Source of the DNA: Nereocystis luetkeana
Taxonomy: Eukaryota; Sar; Phaeophyceae; Laminariales; Laminariaceae
DNA length: 64,000 bases
Direction: 5' to 3'
NCBI GenBank assembly: GCA_031213475.1
Contig: JARUPZ010000029.1
Coordinates: forward strand, 7,431,290 to 7,495,289
The notes beneath the pieces are model-generated. The model saw only the letters and a program-made list of their open reading frames with translations. It ran no database searches and was not told where the DNA came from. This document shows, piece by piece, positions 1,822-63,927 of this stretch (the first letter of the stretch is position 1; each line of letters opens with the position of its first letter). Position numbers and translations under genes: made by a program.

Positions 1822-4265
1822 GTGCGGAAGCTGGATAAGGTCGGGGGGAGGCGGAGCGCCGAGCTACAGCGGACGTACGCAAACGACCTTGGACAGGGGC
1901 TGCTCAAGGTGTAATCGATTTGGATGTTGTCGTGGGTTTAGGTGGTGTCCTTGGAAATGCGCTGCGCTGGGCTGTGTTGTGCTGTGTTGTGCCGTGCTTT
2001 ATTGCTCCGAGGTCCTGTCCCGTCCTGTCCTATCCTGTCCTGTCCTGTCCTGTCCTGTCCTGTCTTGTCCTATGCTGTGCGAGATGGGGGAGGAGGGTCG
2101 TCCCGCGTCGGCAGACAGGCGATTAGTTTGGATTTTAGAGGGGGGTCTGACCGTTCAGCGACAGCACCTCACCACGCGTCTCCGTCCAACCCCACGCATC
2201 CCCGGTCCCCCCCTCCCTGCATGCCGCCTCCTTGATGGAGACAATGATTAGAAATGAAGAACCGAACAGAGATTGGTTCGTGGAATTGTCCGTGGTACTG
2301 TTGTGAGAGAGGTCAATTTACCGTGCGGCTTCGCCTGTATGCCCTCATACCCCCCCCCCCACCCCCCCGCCAAACAATGCCTGCCTGGACGGCGAAAACC
2401 CGACGTACCCCCAGCCTTGTAGAGATGCGAGGGTCTATGGTCTTTCGCGACTACGTTCATGCATGATGTCGAGTACACCCCTCCCGGATGGTTTACTCGC
2501 GATTTTCATGAGGCTCGCCGAACATCTCACAAGAGCTTGGCGCTTGGTGCAGGCAATGTCTGCCTGGTCGGTGAAAACCCGACGTGCTCCGTCCCGGCAT
2601 TGTTGGGATGCGCGGGTCTATGGTCATACGACTACGGCCATGTATGACATGAGTACCCCCCCCCCCCCCCCCGCCCCCCCTCCCTTATTTTCTTTTCGTC
2701 TGGCGGTCACCATGGCTGGTGGTCGAGTTCGATCATTTCTGCAGGGTGGAAAACCTTAAGTCCGCACAAGGGAAATGATCGTATGACGTATCGTGTACCA
2801 GGTATATATATACCGATATATGGTAAAGGCACCCACGAGGCAGTTGCATAGTACAGCCATGCCTGCCTCTGGAAGTGCATACGACGGGGGGGGGGGGGGA
2901 GTATGTCGGCAAGACGCCAGCTCGCCCTTTATGTCACTCGCCCAACACCTCACGGCGTTTCGTGCTTGGTGCAGACAATCAATGCCTGCCTGGCCGGTTT
3001 ATATCGGACGCGCTCCGTCCCGGTATTGTAGGGGTGCGAAGGTTTATTATGGTCATACGGCTACGGCCATGCGTGACAGTGAACCCCCCCACCCCCCCCC
3101 CCCATTCCCTCCTGCTTACCGCCTCCTCGATGCCGATATTTTTAGGCGCGCATCAAAGCGTACTTCAGCGAGCTCATCCCGCGAATTGTTTTCCAGCACA
3201 GCCACCCCGGGCTGGCGTCTATGGAGCGGGCCTCGATAGGGGAGGCCCCAGAGCCGCCGTCCAAGGCTCCTGGGAGCATGCTGCTCCAACAGCAGCTGAC
3301 ACCGGTATGGTTTACTGTGTGCCAGGTATTTTTGTTAGAAGTAGGCTATTTACAGCAGTAGTCTCGTCTTAACAGTAGAGCAGCTATTGTAGTGTATTTA
3401 CCTACAGTAGTCTCACAGTCGCAGTTATTGTGTACCAGGTAGTGGGTGTCTTACAGCAGTAGTCTACGCTTACAGCAGCAGGTGTTGTAGTAGGTGTCTT
3501 GCAGGAGTTATACCGGGGATGTTAATATATAACCTAAGCCTTCATGTGTTTATATCGCGGTAGACGTACCTGTAGTAAGGCGCTCTTGCGTCAAAATCAT
3601 TGCATCGGTGTTGTTACTGGAGTGGTCTTGTACTCGAGCTTCAGAAACAAAACTCTGAGCTGTGATGTTGGATTTTCCCCCCAAAACTCATCTAAAAACT
3701 GCACTCCTCGGAGAGATCATCTACAGATATATTTTCATTTAGATAATCTAGTTCCTTAACTGCCGTGGTCACAAGCTCTGATTGAACCCGGGAAACATGC
3801 GGCAAATCATGCAGAATACACGGGTCCCAACCGGCAATGTCGGGAATTGATCTGCCTTGAAAATCTAAGTCATGAAGTGGGAATGATCTGTGGATGATCT
3901 GTAGATAATCCGTTCATGATCTGTAAGTGATCTGAAGATGATCTGTAGATGTTTCAGTAGATCTTCTGAAGATGATCCGTAGAGTATATGTAGGTGATCT
4001 GTAGATTTTCTGTAGATTATCTGTCCGAGGTGTTGAATAGGGCATATAGTAGTCTTTCCTTGTATATAGTCTTACGTCCGTCTTTCGGTAGCCTTGACAA
4101 GCAGCCTTTCAGTAGTCTGACAGTAGTCTGAATAATATCTGTGCAGTATCACTGAAGTTGGCCTTTCGGTAGCAGTGGATTAGTCCACTCAGCACACTGT
4201 TGTATGTCCCTTTTTGGATACTATCCCAAAGTGATGCAGCAGGGGTACACGACAATATATATATG

Positions 4266-4318
<53 letters not shown>

Positions 4319-7300
4319 TTATATATATAATATTATATACATATATTACGGGGGACCATAATAAGGACCAAATATTGTTAGTAAAAACAGGGAAATAGAT
4401 TTTTGTGTGTACCATAGATCCTATTTAATATGGCCCCATGTAATCGCCGGTTGGGATTTTTGTCATAAAATTAATCAAACATACCAGGTACATATGTTTT
4501 TTCAGAAATGTTCAACCATTTTCTGGGGCCAAAAAAAAAAGTGGGGCGTCAATTTGTTTTTTCGTTTACCTCGAGGCGTTAAGGTGCACAGTTCGGACAT
4601 ATCATTATCTATCTGTCTGCAGCAGATCATCTACAGATCAGACAGATCATCTACAGATCAAACAGATCATCTACATATCAGACAGATCATATACAGATCA
4701 GACAGGTCATATACAGATCAGACAGATCATCTACATATCAGACAGATCATCTACAGATCAGACAGATCATCTAGAACCTGACCTGTCTTTGTGGTATGCG
4801 GTGCGTGCGTTCTTCAGGGTCTGTGTAGTGCAGATCCACCCGAGGAAACCCGTGCTACATGTCACTCACTTTCTACAGCTCCCTCCCACCCGTCAGCATG
4901 AGCTACGGTAGATAATGCATACTACTGTAGTGCTGTTAGGAGTGTCCATCTACCCCAAGCACGAGTATCTACTGTAGATCATGCTGTAGGGATATGATGT
5001 ACCAGGTGTCAGATTTGTTGTCCGAGATGTGAGAAGGGTACGGTTCTTGAAAGCGATCGATGTCGTGGTTAATCGATCAACCCGGTGTTTGATGGGTTGT
5101 TTTTGTTTTTTTTTTTCGACGCGTGTTCTGGAAAAAAGAAGAAGCGTGACCTCGTCCCCTTTCGCCCTCTTTCCTGTCTCGCACCGTTCTCGGGGTTGCC
5201 GTGCTCTCTCGATCGAAGCTCTATGTTGACCTGCGTTTTGCCTTGCTGCTGCTGCTGCTTCCTGTTGGTGATGCCCTCGGGTGGTGGTGCTGCTGCTGCT
5301 GCTGTTTGCTGTGCTGCTGTTGCTGCTTGCTCTGCTGCTTGTGCTCTTGACAGGTTTCGGCATTGCGGCAATGCCTGGAGCACACCATGCCTGCCGTGGC
5401 AAGAGAGCAGGCGTTTTTCATCACGCTGTTCGGCCTGGATCCGATCAAAAGTCCGCAAGACAGGGAATCCGTTCACAAGTGAGAAAAGTGGAAAATACCG
5501 CCAAAGACCAAGGGAATATTATATGCTCAATATTCCTAAAAACGTGCCGTACGGCTTTCGCCGTACTACGAACAAGACGCCAGGACGGAGGGTAAAACAC
5601 ATTGCCATGTGCTGTACGGCTTTCGCCGCACTCGAAAACAGCATCAAGACGGAGCGTAAAACATACCAGGTATATACGTATGTGCTGTACGGCTTTCGCC
5701 GTACTCCTCGAAAACGTCAACAGAGGTTAGTTATTTGTATGTTCTGTCCGGCTTTATCGCCGTACAAGACGGACGAGGGAGCGGGAATGATGACCGCGAT
5801 AAAGCGAAATTGGTTTCGTCGAGAGCTCGATACGCCCTGCTTTTTTTATCATATTTTCTGGCCGTTATTTCGCGAATCAAAAATATTCGACCAGGATGCT
5901 GGAGATCGGCTTCGCGGAGCTCAAGTCCAGCTACAAGCGCCTCGCGGGGGACCTTGGAGACAACCCTTTCGACACCCTGGGAGTGCTGGCGCTCGTGGAA
6001 GACGCTCAGTGCAAGCAGCCGCAGCTGGTTACTCTGGGTATCTTGGTCGAGTTCAAGGGGCTGCTCATGCATCGCTTCAGCAAGTTTATCTCGGAACAGG
6101 TACGCGTACGACGCTATTGTAACAGACCGCGGTTTGGCTACCTTGACCGCGGCTTGACGACCTTGACGACGGTTTGACTGCTTGACTGGCCGCCCACCTC
6201 GACTACATACAGTTTGACAAAGTCGAAAAAGGTCTTGACGGTGACGATGCTGTCATGCAGTGCTTCAGCAGAATAATAAAGGGGCAGTCGATGCTATCTA
6301 ACGCAGTTGGACCGATTGGACGGCCTTGACCTCGGTTTGACCGACTTGACCGCGGCTTGGCGCCCTCGACCGCGGCTTGACCGCCTTGACTTGGATTTGA
6401 CCGACTTGACCGCGGTTTTGTCCCCTTGACCTCGATTTGACCCCCATCGATCGCGGTTTGACTCTTTGGCTGCCGTTCAACCTACACTAACAACAGTATG
6501 ATAAGGTCGAAAGAGGTCTCGACGGTGACGATAATGTCAATATGCACATGTCTTTAGTGCTCATGCACCGCTTCACCGAGTTCATCAAGGAGCAGGTGTG
6601 GCGTGTGGTGTGGCCATGTGCAGCAGTGAAGTTATTGCTATGATTGTGCAGAATGTAGGTTTTTGCTTTTCGCGCCCCGGCGGGTTTAATGCATGTAGTT
6701 CTGCCGTGTTATTTTGGTTGGTGTGTGCTTCGGTAAGCTTTCTTTTTCTTTCTTGCTTTGTTGTTGCTCTGTTTGGATTCGAAATATACCTGGCAGTGCG
6801 CACTGCTTGCTCCTTGTTTTTGCTGTTAGCCGGGTGGTAAAGCCGGGTGGTAATTATGCGTTGCTTTTTTCTTGCTGTTTTTGCTCTTGTTGCGTTATGC
6901 TCTCGCCGTCCTGTCCTTTTGGTACGTGCAAGGACGTGGCCGGTGCGTGTGTCCCTCTTGCCAAAACGTCAGTGTGTGCTTTGTAGGATGTACACGATGC
7001 CCGAGTGCCTACCCGAGTAGGACCACAAGAGCTGAGTGTAGTACCCGGGTACCTCTGAGTAAGATGTGCCCTGGGCGTAAATAGAAAGACCGTTCGGACA
7101 TCAATATGAAGACCAAGCGATACTTTTATTTACGCCGAGAGTGGTGTGTGCACCGTTATCCTTTCGGTGGTCGCTATGCCTTCCGATTTTTGAGCTGTAT
7201 GGAACTCAAAATTCAACGAACGGTGGGCGGGCGTTCTGTCCTTTTTCGGCTGCACAGAACGTCATCGGGTTTTGCCTCGAGTTACCCCTCACCCCGTGTC

Positions 7301-10300
7301 TGAACGCCTCCGAAGGGATACCTTGCACCTTGTAAAACCCCTACTGCATGGACATTAAACGACAAAACACACAAAAAAAAATGGCGAACCATAATTTTTC
7401 CGGGGGACCATAGTTAATAGGACCAAATATTGTCAGTAAAAATGGTCAAATATATAGGTTTTTATGTATACCATAGGCCCTATTAACTGTGGTCCCCCGT
7501 AATAGGCATACTTTGTAGAAGTAGAAGACCGCTGGGCGCCGGTTGAGCGAAGTTCCCGCTTCTTCTTGGTTCCCAAGGGCGGCTTTCTTTATCCGATCCG
7601 TGAGGCGGTTGAGTTAGAGACCGTTTTACCGGGCCGAGCTGGGCGATCTGACATTTGTTTTTCGTTGGTTGTGTGTCAAGTGAGACTCACGGTTCTTTGT
7701 CCCCGCTTTGAACTGCAACGTTTGTACCTAGAACAGCTACTTAGACTTATGTGTGGGGTAATTTGCGCGGTATGAAGCGAAACGGTTACAGGAGCGTTTT
7801 GTGGGGTTTCGATTTTGAGTTGTTGGGGTTGTCGACGATAACTTTTTAGTAGTGTTTCAGCTCGATTTTTTCAGACGCGTACAACAGCGCACCGTACCGT
7901 GTACCCTGCTGGGTGTATATAGCGGCCCGCGTGTCGTATCGCGTACCGTACCGTGTACTGTGTCGTGTCGTGTCGTGTATCGAACCGCTTGCCGCCGTGC
8001 CTTGTCTGTCGTTCACCGTAGGACGAAGTGCGCTTAGAGCGCCGAGTGCGTCACCGTGTGGATTACCGTTTTACCCCACCGTGCGATTTACCGTTTTGAG
8101 CAACCGTGCGATTTATTTACCGTTTTGAGCAACCGTTTTTCGTCTCGTTTGCAACCTTATGGATGTGCGCGGGACAGGTGACTTGGATATCAGGACAGAA
8201 GGGGGACGCGAAAAGGGCGGGCATCCTCGCTGCCGTCGCCAAGCTTCCGACGCTGCTCAAGAAACTAGAGGCGGCGGCTATCGCTGCAGTCGGTGCCAAG
8301 GGGAAGGAGGAGGTGAAAGTTGAAACATAAATTCACACCTATTACGGGGGACCATAGTTAACAGGACCTATGCTATACATAAAAACCTATATATTTAACC
8401 ATTTGTACTAACAATATTTGGTCCTGTTAACTATGGCCCCCCGTAATAGGACAGATCACGATCTAGATCATCTGGATCCTTTTTTACAGATACGTAAAAG
8501 TTGAGCACATGATCTAGATCATACATATCCCACCCAGGCAAACGTGTACATAGGATCTAGATCGCACAGATCCTTTACAGCAAACATGATCTACCGTAGA
8601 TCCCGCAGATCCCTGTAGATCAGGGATCTATCTGCCCCAAACGATCTAGATCCCAAAAATGGGATCTGATATGTCCTAGGTGTGAAGTTATTGCACTATT
8701 TGGCGATGGTACCTGGTAATGTGTACCAGGTATGGCTGTAGGAGATTAAGCCCTAACAGTACGGTACTTTGGTGATTAATTCGTCCAGTCCAGTAGAGCA
8801 CAGAAGAGTATGGTAGGTGGTTGGGCTGTACAGCAGTCCAGCATAGCACTTGTAGTGCACTGTCAATGGCGGTCGATCGCAAGAGGAAGGAGGGGGTAGA
8901 GTTGAAACATATTGCACTCAGTGATGCTCGCCGTAACAAGTACCTGGCGGAGTTTGAGGCAGTAGGCGATTGACCACCCTATTCGACATGTGGCTACAAT
9001 TCGGTTACGCCCTCCAACAAGTGCCTGGAAACCCTTTGGTTGTTTCTCGTCGCTGCTGGTAGTGCCCCCCCCCCCCCCCCCCCTCATTTAAGCTGTCATC
9101 CATATACCAGTCTGCCTCGCAAGTGGTTCTTAGCAGGACGCAGTTCACCCTTCCTGCGACTGGCCGAGCACCACACGGCGCTTTGTGCTTGGTGCAAGTA
9201 AATGTCTGTCTGGTCGGTGAAAACCCGACATGTTCCGTCCCGGCATTGTAGAGATGCGAGGGTCTATGGTCACACGACTACGGCCATGCATGAGATCGAG
9301 TACCCCCCCCCCCCCCCCCGCCCCCCCCCCGCCCCCGGCCTCCCCGCGATGTGCCGAGTGATATATTTTTTTGCAAGCGTAACGGATATGTTCGTGATTA
9401 TTAAACACGTTGGGTTGCGTTGGGATTGGTTGGGTTGGGCTGGATTGGTGTCGCGTAGGGATGCAAATCACGGATGTTGGGTGTTTGGGTGTTTATGTGT
9501 TGGGTGGGTGAAGCACCGGTGGCTTCCATGGGGTAGGTTTGGGTTGTTGCCGTTTGTATGGTATGTTCTCTGGTTGTGTTGGCCTTGATTTATTGTACGC
9601 GTTTGTTTGTTTTTTGTTGTTGTTTGCGCACTTTGTTCAGACGGAGGCGCAGAAGTTCTACCAGAGGCTGGTCCTGCTGCTGTTCAAGCACATCGAGGAC
9701 GTCGCCGCCAGCAACCCCAAGTACGAACACATGGTTCGTCTCGAGAACTACCACTTTTTCTCGGCCACGGTTCGGCCGTTGAAGGTTAGTCAATCGGCAC
9801 ACGGGGAAGAGAGCCAGACAGGCAAGAGAGCCAACCAGGCAGAGAGACACCATGGTAGACAGAAAGGCAGGCAGGCAGGCGGGCAGACAGATAAAAGAGC
9901 CGAGCAGGAAGCAAGCATATCGTCTGTCTTCCCCTCCGCCCCCCCCCACCCGCTTGAGCGTCGCGAGATCTCGGCCTCATCACAATAGTAAAGACACGAC
10001 ACTTCGCGTCGCGGTCGTCGTCTCCCGCAATCAAAGCTGACGAGCCGCAGACCTAAGTGCTATGTTGAGCATTGCTTCTCGCTCGTCCTCCGCCCCGAAA
10101 AAACAATCCTCGTGCCGCGGTAGACAGACAGGCAGGCAGCACAAACGTAGCATGGACAGGCAATAAACAGGCAGAGGCCGGCGCTCAAACAGCCAGGCGC
10201 GTATTCCAGGAAACAGGTGGACAGAACAGTGGATCGTTACCTCTTTTTTTTTTTACAGGAATGCACGCACACGCAGGTAATATATATGTCGCGATTTGAG

Positions 10301-13300
10301 ATGACACACCGTCGTTCATCTGCTGCTGTCGACGAATTTCACTGGAATTACTACACGTTTTTTTTACTTTTGTTAATTATACGTATCGAGCAACGTATTG
10401 CTGTCCAAAAACGCGTTGCTGCGATTCTCGATACAACACGCTACCGCCGTTATGTTGCCGTGCTCTCGACGACTTTGTTTTCTTTTGTCGTTTTCCGTGC
10501 TCTATTTTCTCGATCGGTTTCTACCCTCAGCTCTGGATCCCGTCTACCCCTTCGCCTTTCCCTGAGGGTTAGGGTTATACCCCCCCGCCTTACAAGCGGT
10601 TCTTAGTAGGATGCAGCTCACCTTTCATGCGACACGCCGAACACCTCACGTTTCGCGTCGCGCTCGGTGCCAAGCAAATGTCTGTCTGGTCGGTGAAAAG
10701 CCGACATGCTCCGTCCCGGCATTGTAGGGATGCGAGTGTCTATGGTCACATGACTACGGCCATGCATGAGATCGAGTACATCTCTCCTATCGATTACACC
10801 CCCCCCGTCCGCTTCAGTTCCATGTCATTTTCCCTTTCATTTTCACGTTCATGGCCACCGTCATTTTCGCGTTCTCTTTTACATTCACAATTTTCGCTTT
10901 AACTTAACCTCCGCTGTCCCCCTTTTCACTCTGGTTCTCCCCTTCACTTTTATCTTCGCTTCCATTTTCACATGCTGTTCCTTTCACTTCCACCTTCGTC
11001 CCTCAATTTCACTTCCGCTTTCACCGTCAGCGCCACCCTCGCGTACCGGTTTCCCGTTCACTTTCTAATTTTCATTCCCCACCTTCCCTCTCCCTTTCTC
11101 TTTCATCTTCGCTTTCACTCAACCATTTTTCGCTCTGACTTGTCACTTTCACTTTTGGCTTCGTTTTTTTTTTTTTTTTTTTTTTTTTTTCCAGTTTCGA
11201 CGTACTTTCACATTCTCCTTCACGTTCCACCTCACCTCCACGCCCACTTTTGCTTTCAGTTTTACCCTGCACTGCTGGGCCACCCTCCATTTTCGCTCTG
11301 ATTTTCATTTCTACCTTCCTTTTTCGTTTTCGTTTTCGCTTTCAGTTTTGCACATCGTCACCGTCGTTTTCACGTCCTCTTTCTCCCCCTCCTTCGCTTC
11401 ATTATTCACCTTTTTTTACTTTCACCTCAACATTCGCTTTGTTTTTCACTTTTCACCATCAGTTTTCCCCAGTTTCTCCTTCACTGGAGACTTCCAGGGG
11501 CAGCCCTCGTTATCGCTGCCGCCGTCGGTTTCGTCAAATGATTTTGATCGATTTGGTTTCAATCTTCACTTTTCACTTTTCGACTTATTCTTCGTTCGGT
11601 TTCTTCTTTACTTTTGAGACTTTCAGTGTCAATTTCGTTTTCCACTGGTCCCCTCCACTTTCGTCATTCATTTTGAATAGTTTTGGTTTCGATGCTCACC
11701 GTCACTTGAGAAAATTGTGTGTTACTATTACGGGGGACCATAGTTAATAGGACCTATGGTATACATAAAAACCTATATATTACACCATTTTTACTAACAA
11801 TATTTGGTCCTATTAACTATGGTCCCCCGTAATAAAAGCTTCGTTTTCACCGTCGCCTTCACTTTCGTCCTACTACGGGGGGCCATAGTTAATAGGACCA
11901 AATATTGTTAGTAAAAATGATTAAATATATAGGGTTTTATGTATACCATAGGTCCTATTAACTATGGCCCCCCGTAATAGATGTGAATCCCCCTCGATCG
12001 TTTGGTTTTCCGTCCAGACTGGTACACCTTTAGAATTGTATTACGGGGGACCATAGTTAATAGGACCAAATATTGTTAGTAAAAATGGTTAAATATATAG
12101 GATTTTATGTATACCATAGGTCCTATTAACTATGGCCCCCCGTAATAGATGTGAATCCCCCTCGATCGTTTGGTTTTCCGTCCAGACTGGTACACCTTTA
12201 GAATTGTATTACGGGGGACCATAGTTAATAGGACCAAATATTGTTAGTAAAAATGGTTAAATATAGAGGGTTTTATGTATACCATAGGTCCTATTAACTA
12301 TGGTCCCCCGTAATAATCATTTGATGAGTTTGGTTTCACGTTTCAAACCTTCTTCGCTATTTTTTTCACGCTCTCCTTTGCTCGAGAGACTTACAGCGTG
12401 AGTTTCTTTTTCGCTCTCGCCTTCACGTTCGTCACAATCATTTTGATCATTTTGATCACTTTGGTTTCACTTTTCACCTTCGCTTTTTACTGTTTTTTCT
12501 TTTTACTTGAGACTTTCACCGTCGGCTTCCTTTCCCACTTCCGGCAATCTTTTCGATGGTTTTGGTTTTCAGGTCCACGTGCTGGACGAGTACATCGCTC
12601 AGGCAGAGGCACTTGAGGAGGTCGCCACGACGAGGTGCTTTCTACGGCTAGGCCCACTAGAGTAGTTTGGGAGTACTTGTGAGAGTACACGCATCCAAAC
12701 ATTATTGTTTGTGTATACCCTGAGGTACATACTTTGTGCCAAACCTGACTGTTTGGCTTGTTCAGCCTTCGGGTATGTACCGGGGAACCTCCCCGGAGTA
12801 TACACGGGGTTACCCCTGAGTATACATACCCGGGTATCCCCAAAGTAAATATCCTCGGGTACCCCCAGAGCGATATACCCGGGTATCCCCAGGGCATTAT
12901 ACCCGGGTACCCCCAGAGCAATATACCCGGGTACCCCCAGAGTACGTATAACCGGGTATCCCGAGAGTAATAATACCCGGGTGCCCCCAGAGCGATATAC
13001 CCGGGTACCCACAGAGTGATATACCCGGGTATCCCCAGAGTAATATACCCGGGTACCCCCAGAGAATTACACCCGGGTACCCCCAGAGTATATATACCCT
13101 GGTACCTCCAGAGTCTATTTACCTGGGCACCCCGCAGAGCGCGTCACCCGGGTACCCCGTGGGTACATGGTTTACGATTTACCCAATCAAAAACATCCAT
13201 GTTGCAGTTGTAGACCGATGATACAATAGACTACTGGTAATGCTGTGTGATTTCTGTTGCACCACGCCGGCATGAGCGAGTTGGTAAAACTCGATTAAAA

Positions 13301-16300: not shown

Positions 16301-18878
16301 GGTGGGCCAATTTTTACCCCCAGAAATGTTATCAACAGTATACCTGGTGATGTGTTACTGCCCTCCTTCCCCCCCCCCCCCCCCCCCCCCCCCGGTAACT
16401 CCCCCCCTCGTCGGTACGCAGGTGTTGTCCGAAGGTCTCCGCGCGACACACCACCGGATGCTGAAGCACGTCACTCGTGAAGGCCAGCTCCTGGGACCGC
16501 TGTGGGACAAGCTCTCCGACACGATGTTTGCCATGTTTTCTAGGTGCAGCGCTAGCAATAAACGTGTCGTGTCACACCCTCTCGCCTTTTTTTTTCCCCT
16601 TGTTGCTCGGGGCGTGATGGGTGTACTATAGATACGATGGCGTGCTCTTGTGGTTTGCCGCCTCTACCTGACTTGACCAATCGCTGCCTCGCTTTTTTTT
16701 TCTCTCCTGCTCGGCGCTTGATGGATGTACTGTAGATGTGATGGCGTGTTTCTGTGTTTGCTGCCTCTACCTGACTTCGATCATCGCTGTTTGACGTGTC
16801 CTAAAGAGATGGCCGTGCTTGCAGCACGTATCATACTTTATGCAATACCTCTCTTGTTGCAATACTGCACGCACGATACCAATCCTCTCGCGTTTTCTAC
16901 CAATCATCTCCTCGGGTTTGATTGGTGTAACTGTAGTACGTACGGTGGCGTGTTTTTAGTGCTCCGCGTCTCTGCCTGGCATCAACAGTATCTCACATCT
17001 CGCGTGTTTATGATCGTTTCCTTTCGCCCCTCTCTCTCTACCCCCCCGCCCTCTCACCATAGGGACCCCTCTCTCTCCCCCCCCCCCCCCCGCCCTCTCA
17101 CCATACGGATTGCAATTAGGGGCATAACACGAGGGGGTTTGCAAATAGGGGCATAGGGCTCCCCCCCTCCCCCCCCCCCCGCCCACTCGCGATAGAGATT
17201 GCAATTATTACGGGGGACCATAGTTAATAGGACCAAATATTGTTGGGTAAAATGGTTAAATACATACCTGGTAGGTTTTTATGTATACCATAGGCCCCAT
17301 TAACTATGGTCCCCCGTAATAGAGGCATAATACGATGGTGTTTGCAATTAGGGGTATGGTACACAGTAGCCCATTTTGCTATTTTTGACGTAAAGAGCTT
17401 TTTGACTTCGCACAACAGGGGTACGAGTGTTCTCTCTCGATCCTTTTAGGAGTGCAGTCCCGTTTTCGGAACAATCTACTTGAAATTTGACTGGTTTGTC
17501 CCCAAGTTGAGACTGCTGCAGTACCGAAGGGGTCCACCGCAAGGGCGACTATACAAAGTCGAAAATCGTATCTTTCCGGAAGGCTCTCTCGCTCTCTCGC
17601 TCTCTTATAGTAGATATTTCCGCGGGAGCACCCTTTCTTGCTCGGCACTACTAGCCCAACCTTCCCGTTCTCTGGAAAAAGATGGGGCACTGAATGAAAC
17701 GATCGCACCCCACCCTGTGCGGCGAACTCGTCGCTATTTACGGTGGTTCTGAATCCTGGCTAGGACGAAATGCCCAACGATTGTGATCGTTTAGATTTTG
17801 AACGATAGTATTCGTTACATTCCATGGGAGTGCTTGCTCAGATCGGGTTAAGCTCGCAGTTGCTCCTTTGAAAGCCTCGAATTTGTGGGTTTTAACAACA
17901 TGTGTCGGCCTCCTTAAACGATAAGCACCCCATAAACCCATGAAATGTAGGTGCACCCCTAGCGTAGTAAGAGCCCTCCCCTCCCCCCCCCTCCGTCCCG
18001 GCATTGTAGGGATGCGAGGGTCTATGGTCATACGACTACGGCCATGCATGAGATCTAGTACATATCTCCTATCGAGTACCCCCTCCCCCCCCCCGCCCCC
18101 GCCGCCGCCGCCGCCGTTGTCTGGGGTTCTCCCTTCTCTGTCTCCCCCCTCCTGCCCTCGTTCCCTCTACCACCCCCCCCCCCCCCCCTCTCCGCTCTAT
18201 CTTCATCACGCCCCCTCCCCCCTCCCCTTCCTCTCCTCTATATCCATTACCCTACCACCACCGCTGCCATCGCCGCGGCTTGCTCCCCCCCCCCCCCCCC
18301 TCCCCCCTCCCTCTCCCTGTCCAGGTACGAGGAGCTCTGCACCCTGTGCTACCAGCACACGCTCAGCCCAGGGGCGGTCGACATCAAGCGAGCCGCCACA
18401 GAAATAGGCGGGGGCGGGCCCCCCTCCCGAGGCCGGTCCCACAACCCCACGGGGACCGCCGGCCGCGATGACGACGATGAGGACGGAGACGGGGACCTCG
18501 CCCCTTCTTCTCCCCCTTCCTCTGCTGGAGGCTTTGGGGGGGGCAGGTTCGGCTCGTTCTCGAGCTTAGCTTCCCCGTCGAACACGGGGGGTCGCGATAG
18601 CGGCGGCGGAGGAGGAGGCGGTGGTGGGGGGGGGGGGCGGGGGCGGGGGCGGGGGCGGGGCATACTTTGGTAGAAGTGGAGGCGGTTCCGGATCCGTTGG
18701 GAAGCTGAACGGCTCTCAGACTAGTGGCGCTTCCCCCCCCCCTGCGGAGGCGTGGACATCTCCTAGAGGGGGTGGCGGTGGTGGTGGTGGTGGTGGGGGT
18801 GGTGGGGGTGGGGGTGGGAATTCTCCCGTGAACCGCGGCAAGCAGTTTTTCGCCAAGCATCTGCGTATGAACCCGTGA
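1822..18878 (+). CDS. SEC3: Exocyst complex component Sec3/EXOC1, C-terminal part (11 exons)
   Basis: Subunit of the exocyst, which tethers secretory vesicles to the plasma membrane before fusion. Exons: 1822-1908, 3146-3304, 5354-5478, 5895-6099, 8178-8312, 9641-9784, 12573-12634, 14511-14589, 15884-15961, 16422-16543, 18325-18878. All have AG/GT borders and every phase is compatible. They give about 582 residues matching the order of motifs in the Sec3 C-terminal helical region: RSAELQRTYANDL, the segment FITLFGLDP, KYEHMVRLENYHFF, YLQWLVGYQFP, LLGPLWDKLSDTMFAMF and YEELCTLCYQ. The usual Sec3 end is followed by a 130-residue acidic and glycine/serine-rich tail ending FFAKHLRMNP. The N-terminal membrane-binding domain is not in the window. 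The final exon needs one G removed from the run at 18625-18636 to stay open; otherwise it stops at 18672. The exon at 15884 has a weak acceptor (GAAG) and its start is less sure. Confidence 0.88.
2000..2070 (+). repeat. (CCTGT)n pentanucleotide repeat
   Basis: About ten CCTGT units with few changes, in a Sec3 intron. The three open frames across it are a consequence of the repeat. Confidence 0.85.
2372..2482 (+). repeat. PCT element, partial
   Basis: Contains the family core CCTGCCTGG...GAAAACCCGACG, GATGCGAGGGTCTATGG and CATGCATGATGTCGAGTACACCC. Poly-C with interruptions precedes it (2350-2368). First of three successive copies in the same orientation. Confidence 0.75.
2503..2681 (+). repeat. 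PCT element, 3' half
   Basis: Family 3' half from the GAACATCTCAC segment to GAGTAC and a 16-C tail. Confidence 0.8.
2699..3102 (+). repeat. PCT element, nearly full length
   Basis: Starts at the GGCGGTCACCATGGCTGG segment and runs through the CCGCACAAG and GGCACCCACGAGGCAG blocks to a C-rich tail. A G-run replaces part of the middle (2885-2898). Carries a TACCAGGTA site at 2796. It ends 44 bp before Sec3 exon 2. Confidence 0.75.
3330..3560 (+). repeat. Degenerate GTAGTCTTACAGCAG repeat
   Basis: Several diverged copies of a TACAGCAGTAGTCT unit directly after Sec3 exon 2. No coding signal. Confidence 0.5.
3870..4030 (+). repeat. GATC-rich array: GATCTGTAGATGATC units
   Basis: Irregular units of GATCTGTAGATGATCTG, about 10-18 bp apart, in a Sec3 intron. 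The unit is nearly its own reverse complement. Related arrays lie at 4620-4775, 8450-8660, 20930-20965, 57280-57520 and 60410-60740. Confidence 0.7.
4254..4336. repeat. (TA)n microsatellite
   Basis: About 80 bp of almost pure TA/TATATAA directly before an M1 copy. Confidence 0.9.
4346..4443 (+). mobile_element. M1 MITE, diverged
   Basis: Left end TTACGGGGGACCATA; right end decayed to GGCCCCATGTAA; 98 bp. Confidence 0.8.
4620..4775 (+). repeat. 20-bp tandem array (CAGATCATCTACAGATCAGA)
   Basis: About eight head-to-tail copies of a 20-bp unit with GATC twice per unit, in a Sec3 intron. Minor changes (CATATC for CAGATC) alternate. Confidence 0.9.
5238..5342 (+). repeat. (TGC)n imperfect trinucleotide repeat
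   Basis: Stretches of TGCTGCTGC just upstream of Sec3 exon 3; long apparent frames on both strands here (Leu/Cys or Gln/Ala/Ser) come from the repeat. Confidence 0.85.
5540..5770 (+). repeat. Tandem copies of a GCTGTACGGCTTTCGCCGTACT unit
   Basis: Four spaced copies of a short palindrome-like segment, TACGGCTTTCGCCGTA, at about 5549, 5614, 5688 and 5748 (last one degenerate), each followed by CGAAAACA and a C/A-rich stretch. They sit in the intron between Sec3 exons 3 and 4. Confidence 0.7.
6115..6480 (+). repeat. TTGACCGCGG tandem repeat
   Basis: Degenerate units of about 19 bp built on CTTGACCGCGGTTTGACCG, in the intron after Sec3 exon 4. Apparent minus-strand frames (SRGQVGQ type) reflect the repeat. 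Confidence 0.8.
6558..6594 (+). pseudogene. Duplicated copy of the 3' end of Sec3 exon 4 (relic exon)
   Basis: An AG-bounded 37-bp segment followed by GTGTGG encodes LMHRFTEFIKEQ, almost the same as LMHRFSKFISEQ at the end of exon 4 (6062-6099). At 37 bp it would shift the frame if added. Its upstream flank (6500-6550, GATAAGGTCGAAAGAGGTCT) is itself a second copy of 6205-6250. It looks like a partial tandem duplication that kept an exon end, not a working exon. Confidence 0.6.
7060..7150 (+). repeat. Dispersed repeat shared with 18905-18985
   Basis: Both places have a GGCGTAA(A/G)TA block, then ATGAAGACCA(A/G)GCG, then ATACT(T)TTAT/TTCGCC and AGTGG. The copy at 18.9 kb lies just 3' of the Sec3 stop codon. 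Confidence 0.55.
7398..7502 (+). mobile_element. M1 MITE
   Basis: 105 bp; left terminus mutated to TTCCGGGGG; right end CCCCCGTAA followed by TA. Confidence 0.85.
8342..8446 (-). mobile_element. M1 MITE
   Basis: 105 bp, intact ends, TA on both sides; lies 29 bp after the donor of Sec3 exon 5. Confidence 0.92.
8449..8665 (+). repeat. GATCTAGATC-rich array
   Basis: Many AGATCTAGATC/GATCATCTGGATCC segments; GATC occurs every 8-25 bp. Starts at the right border of the M1 copy. Confidence 0.7.
8710..8732. repeat. Paired inverted scar motif TACCTGGTA / TACCAGGTA
   Basis: The nine-base motif and its reverse complement are separated by only ATGTG. See the scar finding. Confidence 0.6.
9085..9345 (+). 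repeat. PCT element, 3' part with C-tail
   Basis: Runs from TTTAAGCTGTCATCCATATACC through the GGTTCTTAG...GACGCAG block to GATCGAGTAC and an interrupted C run (9302-9340). A second C run (9064-9082) directly precedes it. Lies in the intron before Sec3 exon 6. Confidence 0.85.
10572..10806 (+). repeat. PCT element, 3' part
   Basis: Family sequence from CGCCTTACAAGCGGTTCTTAG to the doubled end GATCGAGTACATCTCTCCTATCGATTACACCCCCC. Confidence 0.85.
11728..11832 (-). mobile_element. M1 MITE
   Basis: 105 bp, intact inverted repeats, inserted in the pyrimidine tract. Confidence 0.93.
11873..11977 (+). mobile_element. M1 MITE, first of a tandem group
   Basis: 105 bp; left end CTACGGGGGG. Followed by a 63-bp spacer that recurs. 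Confidence 0.92.
12041..12145 (+). mobile_element. M1 MITE, in tandem unit 1
   Basis: 105 bp within the 168-bp duplicated unit. Confidence 0.92.
12209..12313 (+). mobile_element. M1 MITE, in tandem unit 2
   Basis: 105 bp within the second 168-bp unit; ends CCCCCGTAA. Confidence 0.92.
12776..13165 (+). repeat. 24-bp minisatellite with CCCGGGTACC core
   Basis: About 15 copies of a ~24-bp unit, ATACCCGGGTACCCCCAGAG plus 4 variable bases. The core contains CCCGGG and GGTACC, both palindromic. The period is a multiple of three, so open frames appear in several frames on both strands (GYPQS, GVPGY types) without being genes. Intronic to Sec3. Confidence 0.93.
13467..13571 (-). mobile_element. M1 MITE
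   Basis: 105 bp, intact ends, TA on both sides. Confidence 0.93.
13720..13990 (+). repeat. 30-bp tandem repeat
   Basis: Nine copies of CTCGGCTGAAAATGGTGTTT plus GCGTCAATA (about 30 bp). The open frames over it on both strands are explained by a period divisible by three. Confidence 0.92.
14050..14155 (-). mobile_element. M1 MITE, older subfamily
   Basis: 106 bp; inner part of the inverted repeat diverged (ACTAAGTAGG / CCTATTTACT). Confidence 0.85.
14160..14505 (+). repeat. TGATCATCGTC degenerate repeat
   Basis: Diverged 9-14 bp units with TGATCATCGTC or ATCGTCATCCGATCG. Lies just upstream of Sec3 exon 8 at 14511. Confidence 0.7.
14673..15231 (+). repeat. PCT element, full-length reference copy
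   Basis: About 560 bp, the most complete copy. 5' start GGTTGGGTTGGTGTCGGTTG; blocks in order: GGCGGTCGGTCACAGCTGG, CTCCGCACAAGTGGGAATG, GGTGAGGCACCCCCAAGG, GGCTTCACCGGAAATTAA, GCTGTCATCCATATGCAAG, GGTTCTTAGTAGGATGCAG, CTTGGTGCAAGCAATGTC, GATGCGAGGGTCTATG, GCCATGCATGAGATCGAG; ends GAGTACAC plus poly-C. No open frame. No tRNA-like boxes recognised. A poly-C run at 14629-14649 sits just before it. Confidence 0.85.
15499..15603 (-). mobile_element. M1 MITE
   Basis: 105 bp; inner repeat AACCATGG variant. Confidence 0.92.
16036..16140 (-). mobile_element. M1 MITE, slightly diverged
   Basis: 105 bp; right end TCCACCGTAA. Starts 75 bp after the donor of Sec3 exon 9. Confidence 0.9.
16371..16393 (+). 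repeat. Poly-C tract at a splice acceptor
   Basis: C run 28 bp upstream of the acceptor (16420-16421) of Sec3 exon 10; it may serve as part of the polypyrimidine tract. Confidence 0.7.
16560..17015 (+). repeat. Three diverged ~130-bp tandem copies
   Basis: Each copy contains CTCG(G)(C/T)(G/T)TGATGG(G/A)TGTACT(A/G)TAG, GATGGCGTG(C/T)T and GCCTCTACCTGACTT or a decayed form. Starts at about 16580, 16690 and 16900. Intronic to Sec3. Confidence 0.65.
17040..17350 (+). repeat. CCCTCTCACCATA / GCAATTAGGGGCATA tandem repeat, split by M1
   Basis: Three units with C runs, CCGCC(C/A)(T/C)TC and GATTGCAATTAGGGGCATAA. An M1 copy (17208-17319) interrupts one unit. Confidence 0.7.
17208..17319 (+). mobile_element. 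M1 MITE with a 7-bp TACCTGGTA-type insertion
   Basis: 112 bp instead of 105: at the internal ATATATA the sequence reads TACCTGGTA (17265-17273). Everything else matches the family. Confidence 0.92.
17442..17531. mobile_element. M2 palindromic element
   Basis: CCTTTTAGGAGTGCAGTCCCG, then the AATCTACTTGAAATTTGACTGG centre and a decayed inverted half ending GAAGGGGT. Confidence 0.75.
17991..18098 (+). repeat. PCT element, 3' end
   Basis: From CTCCGTCCCGGCATTGTAGG to GAGTACCCCCTCCCC; followed by (CCG)n and C-rich sequence up to the last Sec3 exon. Confidence 0.8.
18080..18324 (+). repeat. C-rich tract leading into the last Sec3 acceptor
   Basis: About 240 bp of C-rich sequence with (CCG)5 and several C runs; the acceptor TGTCCAG lies at 18318-18324. 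Confidence 0.75.
18600..18660 (+). repeat. G-rich run with (GGGGGC)n inside the Sec3 coding exon
   Basis: Codes for polyglycine. The two halves of the exon are open in different frames that meet here. Removing one G from 18625-18636 makes the whole tract glycine and joins them. Confidence 0.85.
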
Positions 18879-22660: not shown

Positions 22661-22791
22661 CCCTCCTTGGACGGTAACGGATTCCATTCGCGCGCTGTAT
22701 CCTCGGGTCATGCGTGCTCGTCGTACGCACAGCAACATCAACAAGAACAGCAACCAACTACTGCTACACCGCCTACCCTGGTACCGACCGC

Positions 22792-40097: not shown

Positions 40098-40174
40098 TAG
40101 CACGACCGGTAGTCGTACCAGCCTCGCGGTCGAAATGTTGTGACCACATACCCCAACAGAGCTGGTACCTACCT

Positions 40175-42077: not shown

Positions 42078-42129
42078 TGGAGCAGTCTCTCGAACAGCCA
42101 GCGAGCAACAGATACCTGGTAGTCAGATA

Positions 42130-44639: not shown

Positions 44640-44910
44640 CCTGGTACAAGACACAAACAAGCTCTGTGGTCACAAAACTACGCCGGAGAGACACTATAGT
44701 ACAACAACAATCAGTAGTACGAGTACTGTGCTATGGTGCGTGTGTTCTCCACTACAAGGTATACCAAACAGAGTAAGACAAAATGCAATCTTAGATGTCC
44801 TCGTACTGGATACGACAGGCACGACATACACATTCTATAAATTAGAAAACAAGAGACACAAAAGAGAACGAAAGAGAACAGGAAAAAAAAAACTGCTGTC
44901 TGTCTGTCGT
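44640..44910 (+). repeat. Dispersed repeat related to 37837-37990
   Basis: Shared blocks TGTGGTCACAAAACTAC, GATACGACAGGCAC and AGAGA(A/G)C.A in the same order. Confidence 0.55.
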
Positions 44911-45227: not shown

Positions 45228-45315
45228 TAGCAGCAGTATCCGTTGGTGGTGTATGTATACCAGGTACGTACGGTGTCCTACAGCATCTGTACTCGCCCCA
45301 TCTACTGTATTACAG

Positions 45316-48300: not shown

Positions 48301-51300
48301 AGTCACAGCCGTGGGTGGCCCCATCAGGGGGGGGTGTCATCGAGTTTTACAGGGTTGGTAAACGGATACAGGTGACAAAACAATATTGCACGGGTTTTTG
48401 GCGATAGTACTGTTGTTGTGCTTCGATGCGAGCAACAGGGCCGATGCTTTTGTGGGTAGCATGCTGTTGTTGGGCCGCGACTCGAGCAGTCGGGCCGATG
48501 CGCTATGGAAGACGCTGCTGCGGTTGTGCTGCGCTGTCGAGCAAACGTGACGATGTACCTGGCTTGGGAGTACGCTTCGCGTTCATTGTGGAGCTTCACT
48601 GCATCAGCATATGTTGGCGAAACCTAAACCGGCCCCTGTTTTTCGTCCCGGTTTACAAGGACGGTGTGGCTGAAGAACAGCGAAAAAAAAAACAAGAATC
48701 AGCGCAAGAACCACGCCGCCAAGGGCCAAGGCAAGAATCCAGGCAAGAAATACCGCAAGAAACAACACAAGGAACAAGGCAAAGTAACCAAGGCAATAGT
48801 CAATACAAAGAACCCAAGAAAGAAACGACTCGAGAAACCAGGCAAGACACAATGCCAGAGACGACACAACGAGTCATCCAAGAATTGCGGCAACAACCAA
48901 GCGACGAGGACCGCGCTCGGCCCCAGACGGTTGGAGGGCTGATTGGTGATTTCGACGTCGTGGAGCCCGACGAGGACCCTCTGTCTTGCTTGAAGGAGGA
49001 AGAAGGGGAGGCGGGAGGTGGCCGGGGTGGCAGACCGTCAATGCGTCGTCTGGTGGCACCGGTCGATCCCAACTTAGCTGTGAGTTCCCAAGCTAGTGCT
49101 ATTTGTTGTTTATTATTACTATTGCGGCTAATATTATTATTTTTATTATTATTATTATTATTTATTTATATATTTTTATTATTATTATTGTTGTTATTGT
49201 TATTATCATCATCACTTTTGTACTAGTATGTTTTCCACCCGACGATGTTTAGCATGGTGAGCTTCAACGTTGATCTCTCAAAAACCTTCCCTCCCCGAAA
49301 AAAAGCATCAACACCAAGAGGCCTACTACTTTTACGGGGGGCCATAGTTAACAGGACCAAATATTGTTAGTAAAAATGGTTAAACATATAGTTTTTTATG
49401 TGTACCATAGGTCCTGTTAACTATGGTCCCCCGTAATAGGTGCTAGTCTTGCCTGTGTGGCGTGAATGCTCGAAAGGGGGACGAAGCAGGTGACGATTCA
49501 AAGCGTCGGCTACATTTATCAATAGCAAACCCCGCGCCACCCGTCGTTCTTGGGGCTTAGGGGAGGCAAGCCATTTTTAGTGGAAACCGGAAAGACAGGC
49601 GGGAACTACAGTAGTAGGGACGGCAGACTCGCCCAGTTCGCCGTCTGGTACCCCAGGTCGACCCCCCCCGCCTCGCTGTGAGTTTCGGTTGTGCCACCAT
49701 TGTTTTAGTTTTTTCGACGTAATTTTTATTCTCCAGCTTAACGCCTCGCAGGAGGAGGCTTTACTTGAAACGCGGGAAGGAGAGGGAAAGCCCCCCCGAT
49801 GACTACGAAGGCGAAGGAGGTAGACTTCGTGCACCCCAGCACAGTAGTGGCTTCCCTGTTTTGGTTTCCCCGGGGTTTCCATGTTTGTTGTTTTCCTACG
49901 GGAATGGTCAAAGACGTTGCAGGTACTGCTGTAAAAGACGCAGGAACTGTCCTATTATTAATACTTGAATTAATATTACGGGAGGCCATAGTTAACAGGA
50001 CCAAATATTGTTAGTAAAAATGGATAAACATATACCTGGTAGGTTTTTTATGTATACCATAGGTCCTCTTAACTATGATCCCCCGTAATAGTAGTGTTAC
50101 CAGGTGCCAATGCCTTCCGCAGGTACCAGGTACGTGGGCAATGATGTTGAACTAGGAGTTGCTGCGATGAACAAGACGCCAATATGCCACCTCGAGACCG
50201 TGGCGCCGGACTGAAGCTCGGGTGGCAAGACATAGACAGAGCAGCAGTTATGGCTGGAGTTTCGTCCAGGCCTGGCAAGCTACCTACGCAAGAGGGGTTT
50301 GATAAATTTTAGCACGTGCCGGAACTACGCCGCGAGGAGCTGTGCAACACCCCCAAAGCACGATGTGCTATGGCATGGAACACTCGTGCTGCAGTGCGCT
50401 CGCCCTTTTATCAGACGGGTCATATATAATATGATCGCATTTTGTTTTGGGGGAGAGGGTGCTGATCGTGGTATCTGGGTCCCTCCCCCCCGAAAAAACA
50501 AATGCCGACGTTACGACTGGGGGTCGCAAGTAATTAGGGCATATCTCCACGGGAGGATGTCTATTTCAAGGCCAAGAGAGGGAGAGACGTGCGGAGATTG
50601 CGACGATAAGGACATAATGTTATCGAGACAGGCGCGTCTTTCCCGCGAGGTTATCACAGCTTTGGTCGAGGATGCATATTAATAAAGAAGCAGCTTGCTC
50701 GGGGTGGGTGGGATTTACTCAAGCCATGCATGGCCGTGGTCGTACAACCATAGACCCTCGCATCCCTACAAAATTTCCGGGACGGAACACGTCGGGTTTT
50801 CACCAACCAGGCAGTCCTTGTTTGCGCTAAGCGCGAAGCGCGGCGTGGGGGGGGGTACAAGCACCAGTATCCCCTTTTCGAACACGCCCACAGAGTTACA
50901 CTCTCGGGACAAACAAGTTGGAATCGAAGAAATGAAGAGTTGGATAGCATTCAGAAACAGTAGCAAAATAGTTACTTTACAGTACGAAAAATGCATGATC
51001 ACTTTGTCATTCGGAAGATCCACCCTCCGTTGGTCCTTACCTCACCTGGGGCTGAGAAACGCCGCCCCTGCGGAAAATTTCGAGCAGGTTGTACCCGGAA
51101 GATAGATGCCGAAAACGCACCAGGTACATAGAAACCCCCACATTCCAGACGTGATCCTAAGCCCTGTCTGTGTTTTTTTTCGACGTCCCCTCGCGCAACT
51201 CTCTGCCTTTTGGGTGATCTACCGCGGCAGGAGAAGGAGAGGAAGCTGTACTGGGGGAAGAAGAAAACGTGGGCACGTGATGTGAGCCTGCCTGACTATG

Positions 51301-54300
51301 TCAACAAGAGCCCAAGAGTACCGTCACCCCTTCGTTATTTCGTTCTCGCTCCGGCCTTAACCCCCTTCACCCCTGGCTGCCCCTGTCACGTTTTGGGAGT
51401 AAAATTGCTTGGAGTCAAGTGTAGGTTCAGTTTTGGGGTAACCAATGGCTCAGCCCTTCTAAGACCGCAGTCCCGGTCTGGGGGGGCAAATTACTTACCA
51501 GGTACCTGGTAGCATTTATTTATGTGGTTTGCCCCCAAAACGGGACTATAGTTTGCCGTAAAACTTTTTTGTCTCCCCTCACATCGCTACGGAAACGATC
51601 CCACACTAATTCCGGGTAATTAGCCTAAAAAATCCGTGTGGGCGCATAGTGACGCCTCACGCCGGCAGGGTGTTCCCATCGTGAGGCGTTTGGTTTACGA
51701 GCGTTGGTTTGTGGCACCCCGGGAAGATCTTACGTCGTATTGCGGGGGGGCATAGTAAACAGGACCTACGACACGCATAAAAACATACATATATATCGCT
51801 ATTTTTACTAAGAACGTTTGGTCCTATTTACTTTTTTCTAAGAGTATTCTGCCCTATTTACTATGGTCCCCCGTACTACTTCAAACCGAAAAAAAAAAAA
51901 ATCGGCTCGTAAATGATGGTGGTACCTGACTTCGGGCCTCTCTCCAAGGCTTTCAGGGTAGGGTGTGTGTGTGTGCTCATTATCATGCATGGCCGTAGTT
52001 GTATGACTAGATAGACCCTCGCATCATACCAACAACGCCGGGACGACAGACAAGGCTTGCACCAAGCGCGAAGCGCAACATGAAGTATTCGGCGGGTCGC
52101 ATGAAGGGGGTGAGCTGCATCCTGCTAAGAACCGCTTTTGAGGCTGATTTTCCTACATATATATGGATGACAGCGTGAATTGATTTATTTTCTGGTGAGG
52201 CCGCTTCCAGAGGCAGCAATGGGTTTACTATGTGACCGCCTCTTGGGTGCCTTAACGCATACACACTACGTGATACGATCATCCCCCTTGTGTGGAGTTA
52301 AGGTTCTCCCCGCACAAAACTGAGGTGTGTTTCACGGCGTCGTCGCTAACCGAGGCCAACCCAACCTACGTATATAGATATATATATATATATGTGTATG
52401 AACATATGGGGGGGGGGGGATATTATTGTGCGTCTGCTGCAAACGGTAAGTAAGGACGTTCTTTGCCACGCATACACCGGTTCCAAGAGCGGGGGTGCTT
52501 ATGTTGTGCTTGCCTAGTATGATACATGGCTGCATTTATCGTCATGAAACATGTACTGTACCTGGTACCTGTACGAACGCGTCGCCTGGTGCCCGGCAGT
52601 ATACGTAGGTAGCGTTTGCCTTATCGTCAAACGCACAGCAACAATCACCATCACGCATACCCGTAGGATGTACCGCACGGTGGGTAGTCAGTCGGGAGAT
52701 CGGACGCAGGCCCGTGGAGACCGCGTTTGGGGCATAATACCGCCTACTACCGAGTACCTCCCGGCGGATATCCTCTTGGTATGCGTGCCGTAGCCCGCTC
52801 CCTCGAACTGCTATACGCTACGTAGCTGCTGGTTGTGTCAGACATCAACTTTGAAGCCACTAGCCGCGATGCCGCAGAAATAGCGACGCGTGTTTACCCC
52901 ACAGGGGAAGCGTCTACTTTTCCAGAGACTCCTAACCTGATTATGGTATAGGGGCTCTATACTAGAAGTATGTCACCCAAGCTTCAGAAATGCCACCCGA
53001 CGAAATAGCAAACCCCTGCGGGGCAAGCCTGTATTGGTAACATATCCCGATTGACATTGTTAAATTATTGTAGTTGGTGTTCCAGGAAATATTCGGTCAA
53101 CCCATGTAGAACCGCAGTCCCGTTGTGGGGACAAAGCAGCAATTTGTCCCCAAAATGGGACTGCAGTCCTAAAATGGCGAACGAAACGATGGTTGGCATC
53201 TTTGGTGTCAGCAACCATCTGCGCACGAGCAGCGCGAGAGCCCGGGGGCACGGATAGGAGAGGGTCGTGTAGGGCGCGTGCCGTGCCATGCGACTGCCTT
53301 GCTTTTGCTTCTCGGAGACCAAGGTGTACGTACCACCAACCAATCACGCAATGGCGCCGTTCCTGTAACCGTCGTAACCGTCGTTTTATTTAATGTTTTG
53401 CTCGTCAGTTTCCCCCCTCTTCTGAAGTTCAGGGAGGGTTTAAGGAGTCCGTCCGGTCCGTCGGAAATGTTTGGTCCTATACGTGATTACAATGTTAATA
53501 GTATATCCTCATCTTGACCCTTTTAGGGCAAAACTGCAGGCCCGTATTGAGGACAAACCACTCAATTTCTAAGCAATTTGTCCTCCCAAAAAGGTACTAG
53601 AGTTTGCCCTAAAAGGGTCAACACGCCTCCATTACAATAACTCCCGTGTCAAGCCCTGCGACGCAATACCTACCTGGTATGCATTCTATTTCGCATTGTG
53701 GGCCGGAAACAGGTAAGGAATGCTGCTGGCTCTGCTGGCTCAAAATACGCCCTCGCTTCAAGAAGCCTCATCGGGGAAGGCCGCCAGTACATCCGAGCTC
53801 TGAACGAGGCACTCCTCCTGCTACTCGAGGGTTGTTCCAAGAAGCCAGGGGATGAAAACGTGGCCGGAACGGAAGAAGCAGCAGCAGCAGCAGAAGTAGC
53901 AGCAGCAGCAGCCACCACGACTTCTGCCCGCGACGAAACGATGGAGAGTGGAAAACCAAACGAGGCAGTCGTGGGCACAAGAACTCAAGGTACAGCACGG
54001 AGAACTATTTTCGCTAGGCTTTCGCTAGGGTTGCTATTTCGTAGCTGTACGTAGGATTCGTCGATGGAAGCATGTAGGGATGGCGATCGCGCGCGACCCA
54101 TGGTGTGCCTTGGCTTTTTGTCTCTGTTTTTTTTACCGTCCGTGTGACTTTCCAGTCCGATTCGAAAGTCCGATTCGAAAGATTATTTCTATTCTCGGCA
54201 GCGCTTTGGAACAAGGCAAATGTCGCAAGTTTCTCCCCCCGCCCCCCCCCCCCCTTCCCCCGAGAATTCATTCGAGGCGTCATCCTTATGCAAGCTCGCC

Positions 54301-63460: not shown

Positions 63461-63473
63461 CCCTTACCCCCAA

Positions 63474-63510: not shown

Positions 63511-63617
63511 CTAAGAGATAGACGGTGGCCGCAAAAGGAAAACCAGGAAGCAGACAAGGTGTGTAGGCATTTTGCATATGAAATACCAGTATAGGGTAAA
63601 AAAAAAGGAGCAGTGAG

Positions 63618-63685
63618 CGTCCAAATGTTAGAGGGGTGGTGCTCCTGCTCGAAAGGGCTGCGTGGTCAATTGCCAAAACGTCGGA
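63618..63685 (+). mobile_element. Degraded 3' end of the 373-868 retrotransposon
   Basis: GAGCGTCCAAATGTTAGAGG and CTCGAAAGGGCTGCGTGGTC match 749-830 at most positions. Confidence 0.6.
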
Positions 63686-63927
63686 GGCAATCAGGGGAGC
63701 ATGAAAACAAGAGCAAATGGCGTAACAAAAAAAAAAATACAGAGCCACACTTCTGGAGAGTCCGAAAAAACAAATTGTCGCAGCGTTAGGAGTTTTGTAC
63801 GAATCGAACAAAAAATCACTTGGTAAAAAAGAAGTATTCTTTAACTTGATTTTAGTATATCCCCTTGTCGGGCTCTCTCCCCTATGTGATATACCTGGTA
63901 GATACATATATGTATATATACACGTGA

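Follow-up and report, generated by a model that had tools for sequence, protein, structure and literature searches.

Introduction

What has placed the same nine bases at 28 sites of a 64,000-bp stretch of the genome of the brown alga Nereocystis luetkeana (contig JARUPZ010000029.1, positions 7,431,290 to 7,495,289; the window hereafter)? An earlier note on this DNA had taken the word, TACCWGGTA (W being A or T), for the excision scar of a very active transposon inserting at TA. We find that TACCWGGTA, called the scar below for brevity, is very probably the footprint of a cut-and-paste DNA transposon, X, that leaves a TA target site. What is known of a transposon's past normally comes from its surviving copies; in this genome, it is the departed copies that would have left the abundant record.

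Results

The window holds 14 copies of TACCAGGTA and 14 of TACCTGGTA, so that CCAGG and CCTGG are equally represented, with an ambiguous middle base as in end-joining footprints. A hundred dinucleotide shuffles of the window gave a mean of 0.54 sites (standard deviation 0.70, largest 3); the 28 hits of the earlier note are exact at every start. The genome-wide count that it had proposed is also far from expectation. Indeed, the TACCAGGTA word occurs 91,240 + 91,155 = 182,395 times in the 465 Mb of the assembly (1,987 contigs), that is once per 2.55 kb, versus 861 + 883 = 1,744 copies for the control word read backwards, an excess of about 105-fold.

Further counts were made in a 264-kb sample consisting of the window and 20 ten-kb pieces of the genome (three overlapping loci, L002, L003 and L006, were left out of several of them). 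CCWGG is the most frequent of all TA-N5-TA words there, with 105 sites versus 25 for the runner-up. One may ask whether the word is under selection as a site for protein binding or modification, and no scar at all: CCWGG is the site of Dcm and EcoRII, and the word is dispersed and palindromic save for its middle base. However, CCWGG irrespective of context was counted 1,224 times for 975 expected, 210 of these counts being scars, and the excess is therefore bound to the TA frame because CCWGG outside it is near expectation. Moreover, the word appears as a 7-bp insertion in copies of a repeat, and scars are stacked on common TAs (see below), so that we hold a binding site to be very improbable.

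The insertion is seen directly in M1, a TA-flanked miniature inverted-repeat transposable element (MITE) with TTACGG...CGTAA ends. Where scarless copies read ...AAAAACC-TA-TATATT..., scarred ones read ...AAAAACC-TACCAGGTA-TATATT..., CCWGG and one TA having been added at a TA. Of 49 merged M1 matches, those with extracted lengths outside 100-170 bases were excluded from the alignment. The insert is present in 7 of the 45 aligned copies, at one TA in six and at the next in the seventh; two lie outside the window, one of them with a decayed insert, TACCTGGTT. The five window copies are those in which the earlier note had seen a 7-bp insert at two different TAs; it lies at one TA in four of them and at the next in copy 28961. 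A different repeat, at L001, gives the same picture: six of its nine spanning relatives have TA in identical flanks where L001 has TACCAGGTA. Both repeats thus show insertion at a TA with duplication of the TA, a trait of the IS630/Tc1/mariner superfamily.

Could the word simply belong to an ordinary repeat family and have multiplied with it? A few M1 copies elsewhere (L030, L034, L035) do seem, by eye, to form one lineage with a single scar by common descent. However, the flanks are distinct at 99 of the 105 sampled scar sites, and two scarred M1 copies differ, on average, as much as a scarred and a scarless one do (mean distance 0.158 in both comparisons, over 45 rows, the overlapping L006 also being excluded). 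The nearest or joint-nearest other aligned copy of each of the seven is scarless. The equality of the distances shows that M1 was hit recurrently, by independent events, and that the inserts do not trace to one subfamily, a result that the note's author had asked the alignment to decide. We regard multiplication with a repeat family as the least probable of the explanations considered.

The scars also share a target preference. In flanks stripped of the scar, the positions ahead of the TA favour W (-7), A (-6), A (-3) and R, meaning A or G (-1), and those behind it mirror this pattern, the preference tables having been symmetrised. Scored among all TA sites by a model built from 77 scars of other places, the 28 in the window reach a mean percentile of 0.82 (p=1.9e-9). 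Furthermore, neighbouring scars lie within 50 bp of each other in 14 pairs for 2.3 expected, several on one common TA (for example 51496/51503), and some places were therefore struck repeatedly.

Several variant words follow the same preference: TACCAGTA (CCAG, 30 sites, p=5e-6), TACCGGTA (CCGG, 10 sites, p=6e-5), TACCAGGGTA/TACCCTGGTA (CCAGGG/CCCTGG, 14 sites, p=0.009), TACCATGGTA (CCATGG, 3 sites, p=0.004) and the 110 scars with one mismatch (p=1e-9). TACCTGTA shows no such preference (12 sites, p=0.38). Four ten-base variants in the window had been listed before; they are present, and the full number is six, with 13095 and 22774 added. CCWGG accounts for 105 of the 162 sites of CCWGG, CCAG, CCGG, CCAGGG and CCATGG together. 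At the hot spot within M1, the pattern CCWGG plus V (not T) plus B (not A) matched 99 places of the genome, 87 of them CCAGGGT, 7 CCAGGGG and 5 others; the 12 junctions besides the 87 comprise seven 7-base CCAGGGG scars, four CCTGGG or decayed scars, and one composite (L038) in which a longer insert, CCAGGAGGG, is followed by a second scar. The flank-matched variants fit a single element end, 5′-CCAG, probably 5′-CCAGG or longer. The ten-base word TACCCGGGTA, with 18 copies in the window, was rejected as a mere repeat word of this stretch, since all 18 sample sites lie inside the window and their flanks fall below background on the scar model. Tandem units resembling it, unrelated to the scars, occupy window positions 24571-24922 (25-bp period) and, judging from repeated peptides, the surroundings of 12500-13140.

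How would such a word arise? X would insert at a TA, duplicating it, and its excision would leave a few bases of both ends between the two TAs, the break being sealed by end joining; the bases of the scar would then be the terminal bases of the element. In the detail that we prefer, a transposase would leave mainly a 5-nt 3′ overhang, CCAGG, the flanks would anneal by four G:C pairs, and the central mismatch, A:A or T:T, would be repaired to A or T, giving CCAGG or CCTGG. Shorter or longer overhangs would yield CCAG/CCGG and CCAGGG/CCCTGG/CCATGG. A like annealing logic, with 3 nt, is described in the available parts of the literature for the C(A/T)GTA footprint of Sleeping Beauty (PMC7827188, PMC3878927).

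The five-base scar is possibly compatible with both 3-nt and 5-nt cuts. With an overhang of 2-3 nt, CCA/TGG from one end and CC/GG from the other would be kept, which accounts for equal numbers of CCAGG and CCTGG and would allow CCATGG (no base lost), CCGG (loss of two) and CCAG besides. The Stowaway footprints of the wheat tribe and those of rice Osmar5 retain 1-4 bp of the ends, according to the part of the report consulted (PMC1925063). Nevertheless, this shorter overhang leaves the dominance of one five-base product unexplained, and to produce the 6-base CCAGGG and the 7-base CCAGGGG the overhang would have to be longer, or bases would have to be added. We consider it rather unlikely, if well worth keeping in mind.

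M1 provides a built-in control. The word TATTAATA, TT+AA between TAs, occurs at 63 sites of the sample and at 11 of the window versus 1.15 in shuffles, and the M1 copy at 20366 carries a 6-bp TTAA+TA insert missing from the other aligned copies. A model from 37 distinct M1 insertion flanks recognises the 57 TATTAATA sites that lie apart from M1 (p=5e-19) but not the CCWGG scars (p=0.98). This model must be read with caution: other AT words, taken as a mixed class, exceed background by a little (mean percentile 0.57, p=6e-6), as does TAC[AT]GTA (0.57, p=2e-4), and simple-repeat words of the TAC type (CTAC) are high. TATTAATA thus looks like a putative excision scar of M1, and that an element still present apparently leaves scars is in keeping with a like process for CCWGG. 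M1 itself is ruled out as the source of CCWGG by its TTACGG ends and its differing target preference. TACGAGTA/TACTCGTA, perhaps another scar, is dispersed at 39 sample sites where about 9 are expected; no two of them share flanks, and they show neither the CCWGG nor the M1 preference (window examples at 33358, 34609, 37316 and 43057). Copies of another family of short inverted repeats, (TA)ACCCTTTTAGAACCGCAGTCCCG, lie at window positions 40334 and 41147 and at L013:387.

Where, then, is X? Several results weigh against the reading of the word as the footprint of X. No CCWGG-ended element was found in about 0.28 Mb, where inverted repeats after TACC were tried up to 6 kb apart; the matches obtained were M1, other repeats or chance. 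Inverted repeats flanked by TA, tried up to 2.5 kb apart in the sample, gave no CC...GG element, and an interrupted-repeat search yielded no CCWGG element. Among 328 candidate ends no convincing shared termini appeared; where the outer flanks differed, the best-matching pairs agreed at 18-19 of 24 positions. The repeated words starting with TACC that were examined, including TACCCGTCGACATCC and TACCGTAGCGGGA, proved internal to larger repeats, in which the bases before the TA are conserved too. No element was present at the 12 junctions read among the 99 candidate M1 junctions, nor were CCWGG-ended inverted repeats in 17 loci of DDE_1 type (L041-L055, L057, L058), and PF13358 (DDE_3) had no match in the genome. 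The variants hold difficulties as well: TACTAGTA (CTAG), a possible product of a 4-nt overhang, has a mean score of -1.28 and is outside the 45 best words, and TACCSGGTA (S being C or G; TACCCGGTA/TACCGGGTA), with 11 sample sites or about four times the Markov expectation, lacks the preference (p=0.40) and is unexplained. The target model partly reflects AT-richness, plain AT words (TATA, TATAA) being high on it, as is the M1-internal word GGWCC. Finally, in the portions of the reports at hand, Tc1/mariner overhangs are usually 2-3 nt (PMC3878927) and the footprints of the pogo-type Passer 0-4 bp (PMC9976928), both below a five-base scar.

The element search covered about 0.3 Mb of 465 Mb, at settings blind to elements longer than 6 kb and to those whose repeats are short, and zero copies in the sample still permits up to about 5,000 genome-wide by the rule of three. 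The mechanism of the earlier note thus stands as to an excision scar, which the preference, the variants and the second, M1-matched scar make likely, and lacks a source element in the DNA searched.

PF03184 has at least 28 matches in the genome and the L046 protein query at least 155; the 17 loci were drawn from such matches, and none of them could be tied to the CCWGG scar. L046, L048 and L051 hold a TA-flanked family of 2.0-2.2 kb with a DDE_1 domain and 15-27-bp matching ends TACAGTACCGGC..., with relatives among those 155 or more matches. In L046, the element occupies the right-hand TA of a CCWGG scar, which is therefore older. The CAGTACCGG... ends rule this family out as the source of CCWGG. 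They would predict TACAGTA/TACTGTA, which has 102 sample sites for 41 expected and may be the scar of this family. A further candidate, L052:518-2524, forms part of a large inverted duplication; its inverted ends start with TATTTTTTGTGTAC and agree at 58 of 61 bp. Scars are sparse in loci L041-L055, with 8 in 60,978 bases for about 24 at the genome mean, a count that is not independent, one locus being an inverted duplication. For a reverse transcriptase of a long interspersed nuclear element (L019:354-1835), Ectocarpus sp. CCAP 1310/34 is named in 4 of the best 120 of 536 matches, at 43-53% identity, in keeping with a brown-algal host; the only further organism name among these 120 stands on a match at 71%, which is labelled as a bacterial metagenome-assembled genome and is probably contamination.

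How old are the scars? The excess of one-mismatch relatives over expectation gives a rough estimate of about 6.4% divergence per base, with about 59% of scars intact, and hence an original number of about 310,000. With scars about 6% diverged, much of the excision activity may be old, and the "very active" of the earlier note may in good part describe the past. This bears on another explanation, programmed or developmental elimination, by which the sequenced tissue would have lost elements whose full copies persist in another cell type. The great number of scars and the lack of any element seen would suit it. However, on this rough divergence many scars are old inherited events, and programmed excision systems usually restore the site; we know of no programmed excision of such a kind in brown algae, and elimination seems to us highly implausible.

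Table 1. Scars, variants and related elements in the window and, for the last three rows, in other loci
Feature	Position	Strand
Scar TACCAGGTA	2796..2804	+
Scar TACCAGGTA	3433..3441	+
Scar TACCAGGTA	4482..4490	+
Scar TACCAGGTA	5664..5672	+
Scar, TACCTGGTA on +	8710..8718	-
Scar TACCAGGTA, neighbour at 14 bp	8724..8732	+
Scar within M1 copy 17208	17265..17273	-
Scar within M1 copy 25860	25922..25930	-
Scar	26030..26038	-
Scar within M1 copy 28961, at next TA along	29014..29022	+
Scar	34967..34975	-
Scar, right TA common to 6-base variant at 37157	37150..37158	+
Scar	38201..38209	+
Scar	38641..38649	+
Scar within M1 copy 39982	40031..40039	+
Scar	40170..40178	-
Scar	41234..41242	-
Scar	41861..41869	+
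Scar adjoining an M1 copy	42113..42121	-
Scar	44442..44450	-
Scar	45258..45266	+
Scar within M1 copy 49976	50033..50041	-
Scar	50124..50132	+
Scar, first of pair on one common TA	51496..51504	+
Scar, second of pair on one common TA	51503..51511	-
Scar	52559..52567	-
Scar	53671..53679	-
Scar	63892..63900	-
6-base variant TACCAGGGTA/TACCCTGGTA, uncertain (tandem repeat nearby)	13095..13104	-
6-base variant TACCAGGGTA	20540..20549	+
6-base variant, TACCCTGGTA on +	22774..22783	-
6-base variant, TACCCTGGTA on +	34167..34176	-
6-base variant nested on scar at 37150	37157..37166	-
6-base variant, TACCCTGGTA on +	44637..44646	-
Scar-bearing M1 MITE copy	17208..17322	.
Scar-bearing M1 MITE copy	25860..25976	.
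Scar-bearing M1 MITE copy	28961..29078	.
Scar-bearing M1 MITE copy	39982..40097	.
Scar-bearing M1 MITE copy	49976..50093	.
TATTAATA, putative M1 scar, within M1 copy at 20366	20405..20412	.
TATTAATA, window starts	20405, 21571, 26632, 29232, 37332, 41326, 47223, 49956, 50677, 56155, 62795	
TA-flanked DDE_1 element, ends CAGTACCGGC	L046:509-2486	
TA-flanked DDE_1 element, ends CAGTACCGGC	L048:537-2724	
TA-flanked DDE_1 element, ends CAGTACCGGC	L051:423-2654	

Discussion

Taken as a whole, these results lead us to propose, tentatively and with slightly less than even confidence, a ghost transposon: an element targeting TA, with 5′-CCAGG ends cut about five bases inside, which would have left the roughly 182,000 intact scars and which, formerly widespread, would now be nearly or wholly gone. 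Should this be true, excision has far outrun retention, and the scars are a datable record of excisions rather than of insertions. Their density permits target preference, repair outcomes and the age of excision to be measured without the element. They would also show how far excision has reshaped a genome, at 7 bp gained per event, and would serve as presence/absence markers between strains. Sequence alone could reveal the repair spectrum that a single transposase produced in a single lineage of algae, and a five-base stagger, if true, would broaden the range of cleavage known for Tc1/mariner-like elements. The titles and abstract beginnings covered by our literature search hold nothing on scars at a comparable scale, and we make no claim that such scars are unpublished; a paper on Ectocarpus transposons (PMC12477816), in the parts available, mentions Tc1/mariner families and MITEs and no scars.

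How does CCWGG compare with known systems? Within the same genome, M1 and TATTAATA resemble it in the TA duplication and in the abundance and dispersion of the scars, whereas M1 itself remains, in 45 aligned copies, with another target preference and TTAA as its putative scar. The pogo-like DDE_1 family of L046, L048 and L051 is likewise TA-flanked, with ends unlike those that CCWGG would call for. Among Tc1/mariner elements, Sleeping Beauty and Frog Prince leave C(A/T)GTA and Hsmar1 leaves T(T/A)A, in the part of the source consulted (PMC3878927). Such footprints, as far as these excerpts describe them, differ from CCWGG in having one to three bases rather than five, and CCWGG stands apart by its roughly 182,000 copies per genome and by a source that was not found; the two are alike in having a duplicated TA that encloses a few bases, which in CCWGG too would be terminal ones, and in being palindromic save for an A/T middle. 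The footprints of Stowaway MITEs and Osmar5 in grasses, in the accessible part of the report (PMC1925063), were deduced from individual gene loci next to elements already known, whereas the CCWGG scars were found before their element. Nevertheless, they share with CCWGG the TA duplication, the repeated loss at one place and, for CCWGG putatively, the short fragments of both ends.

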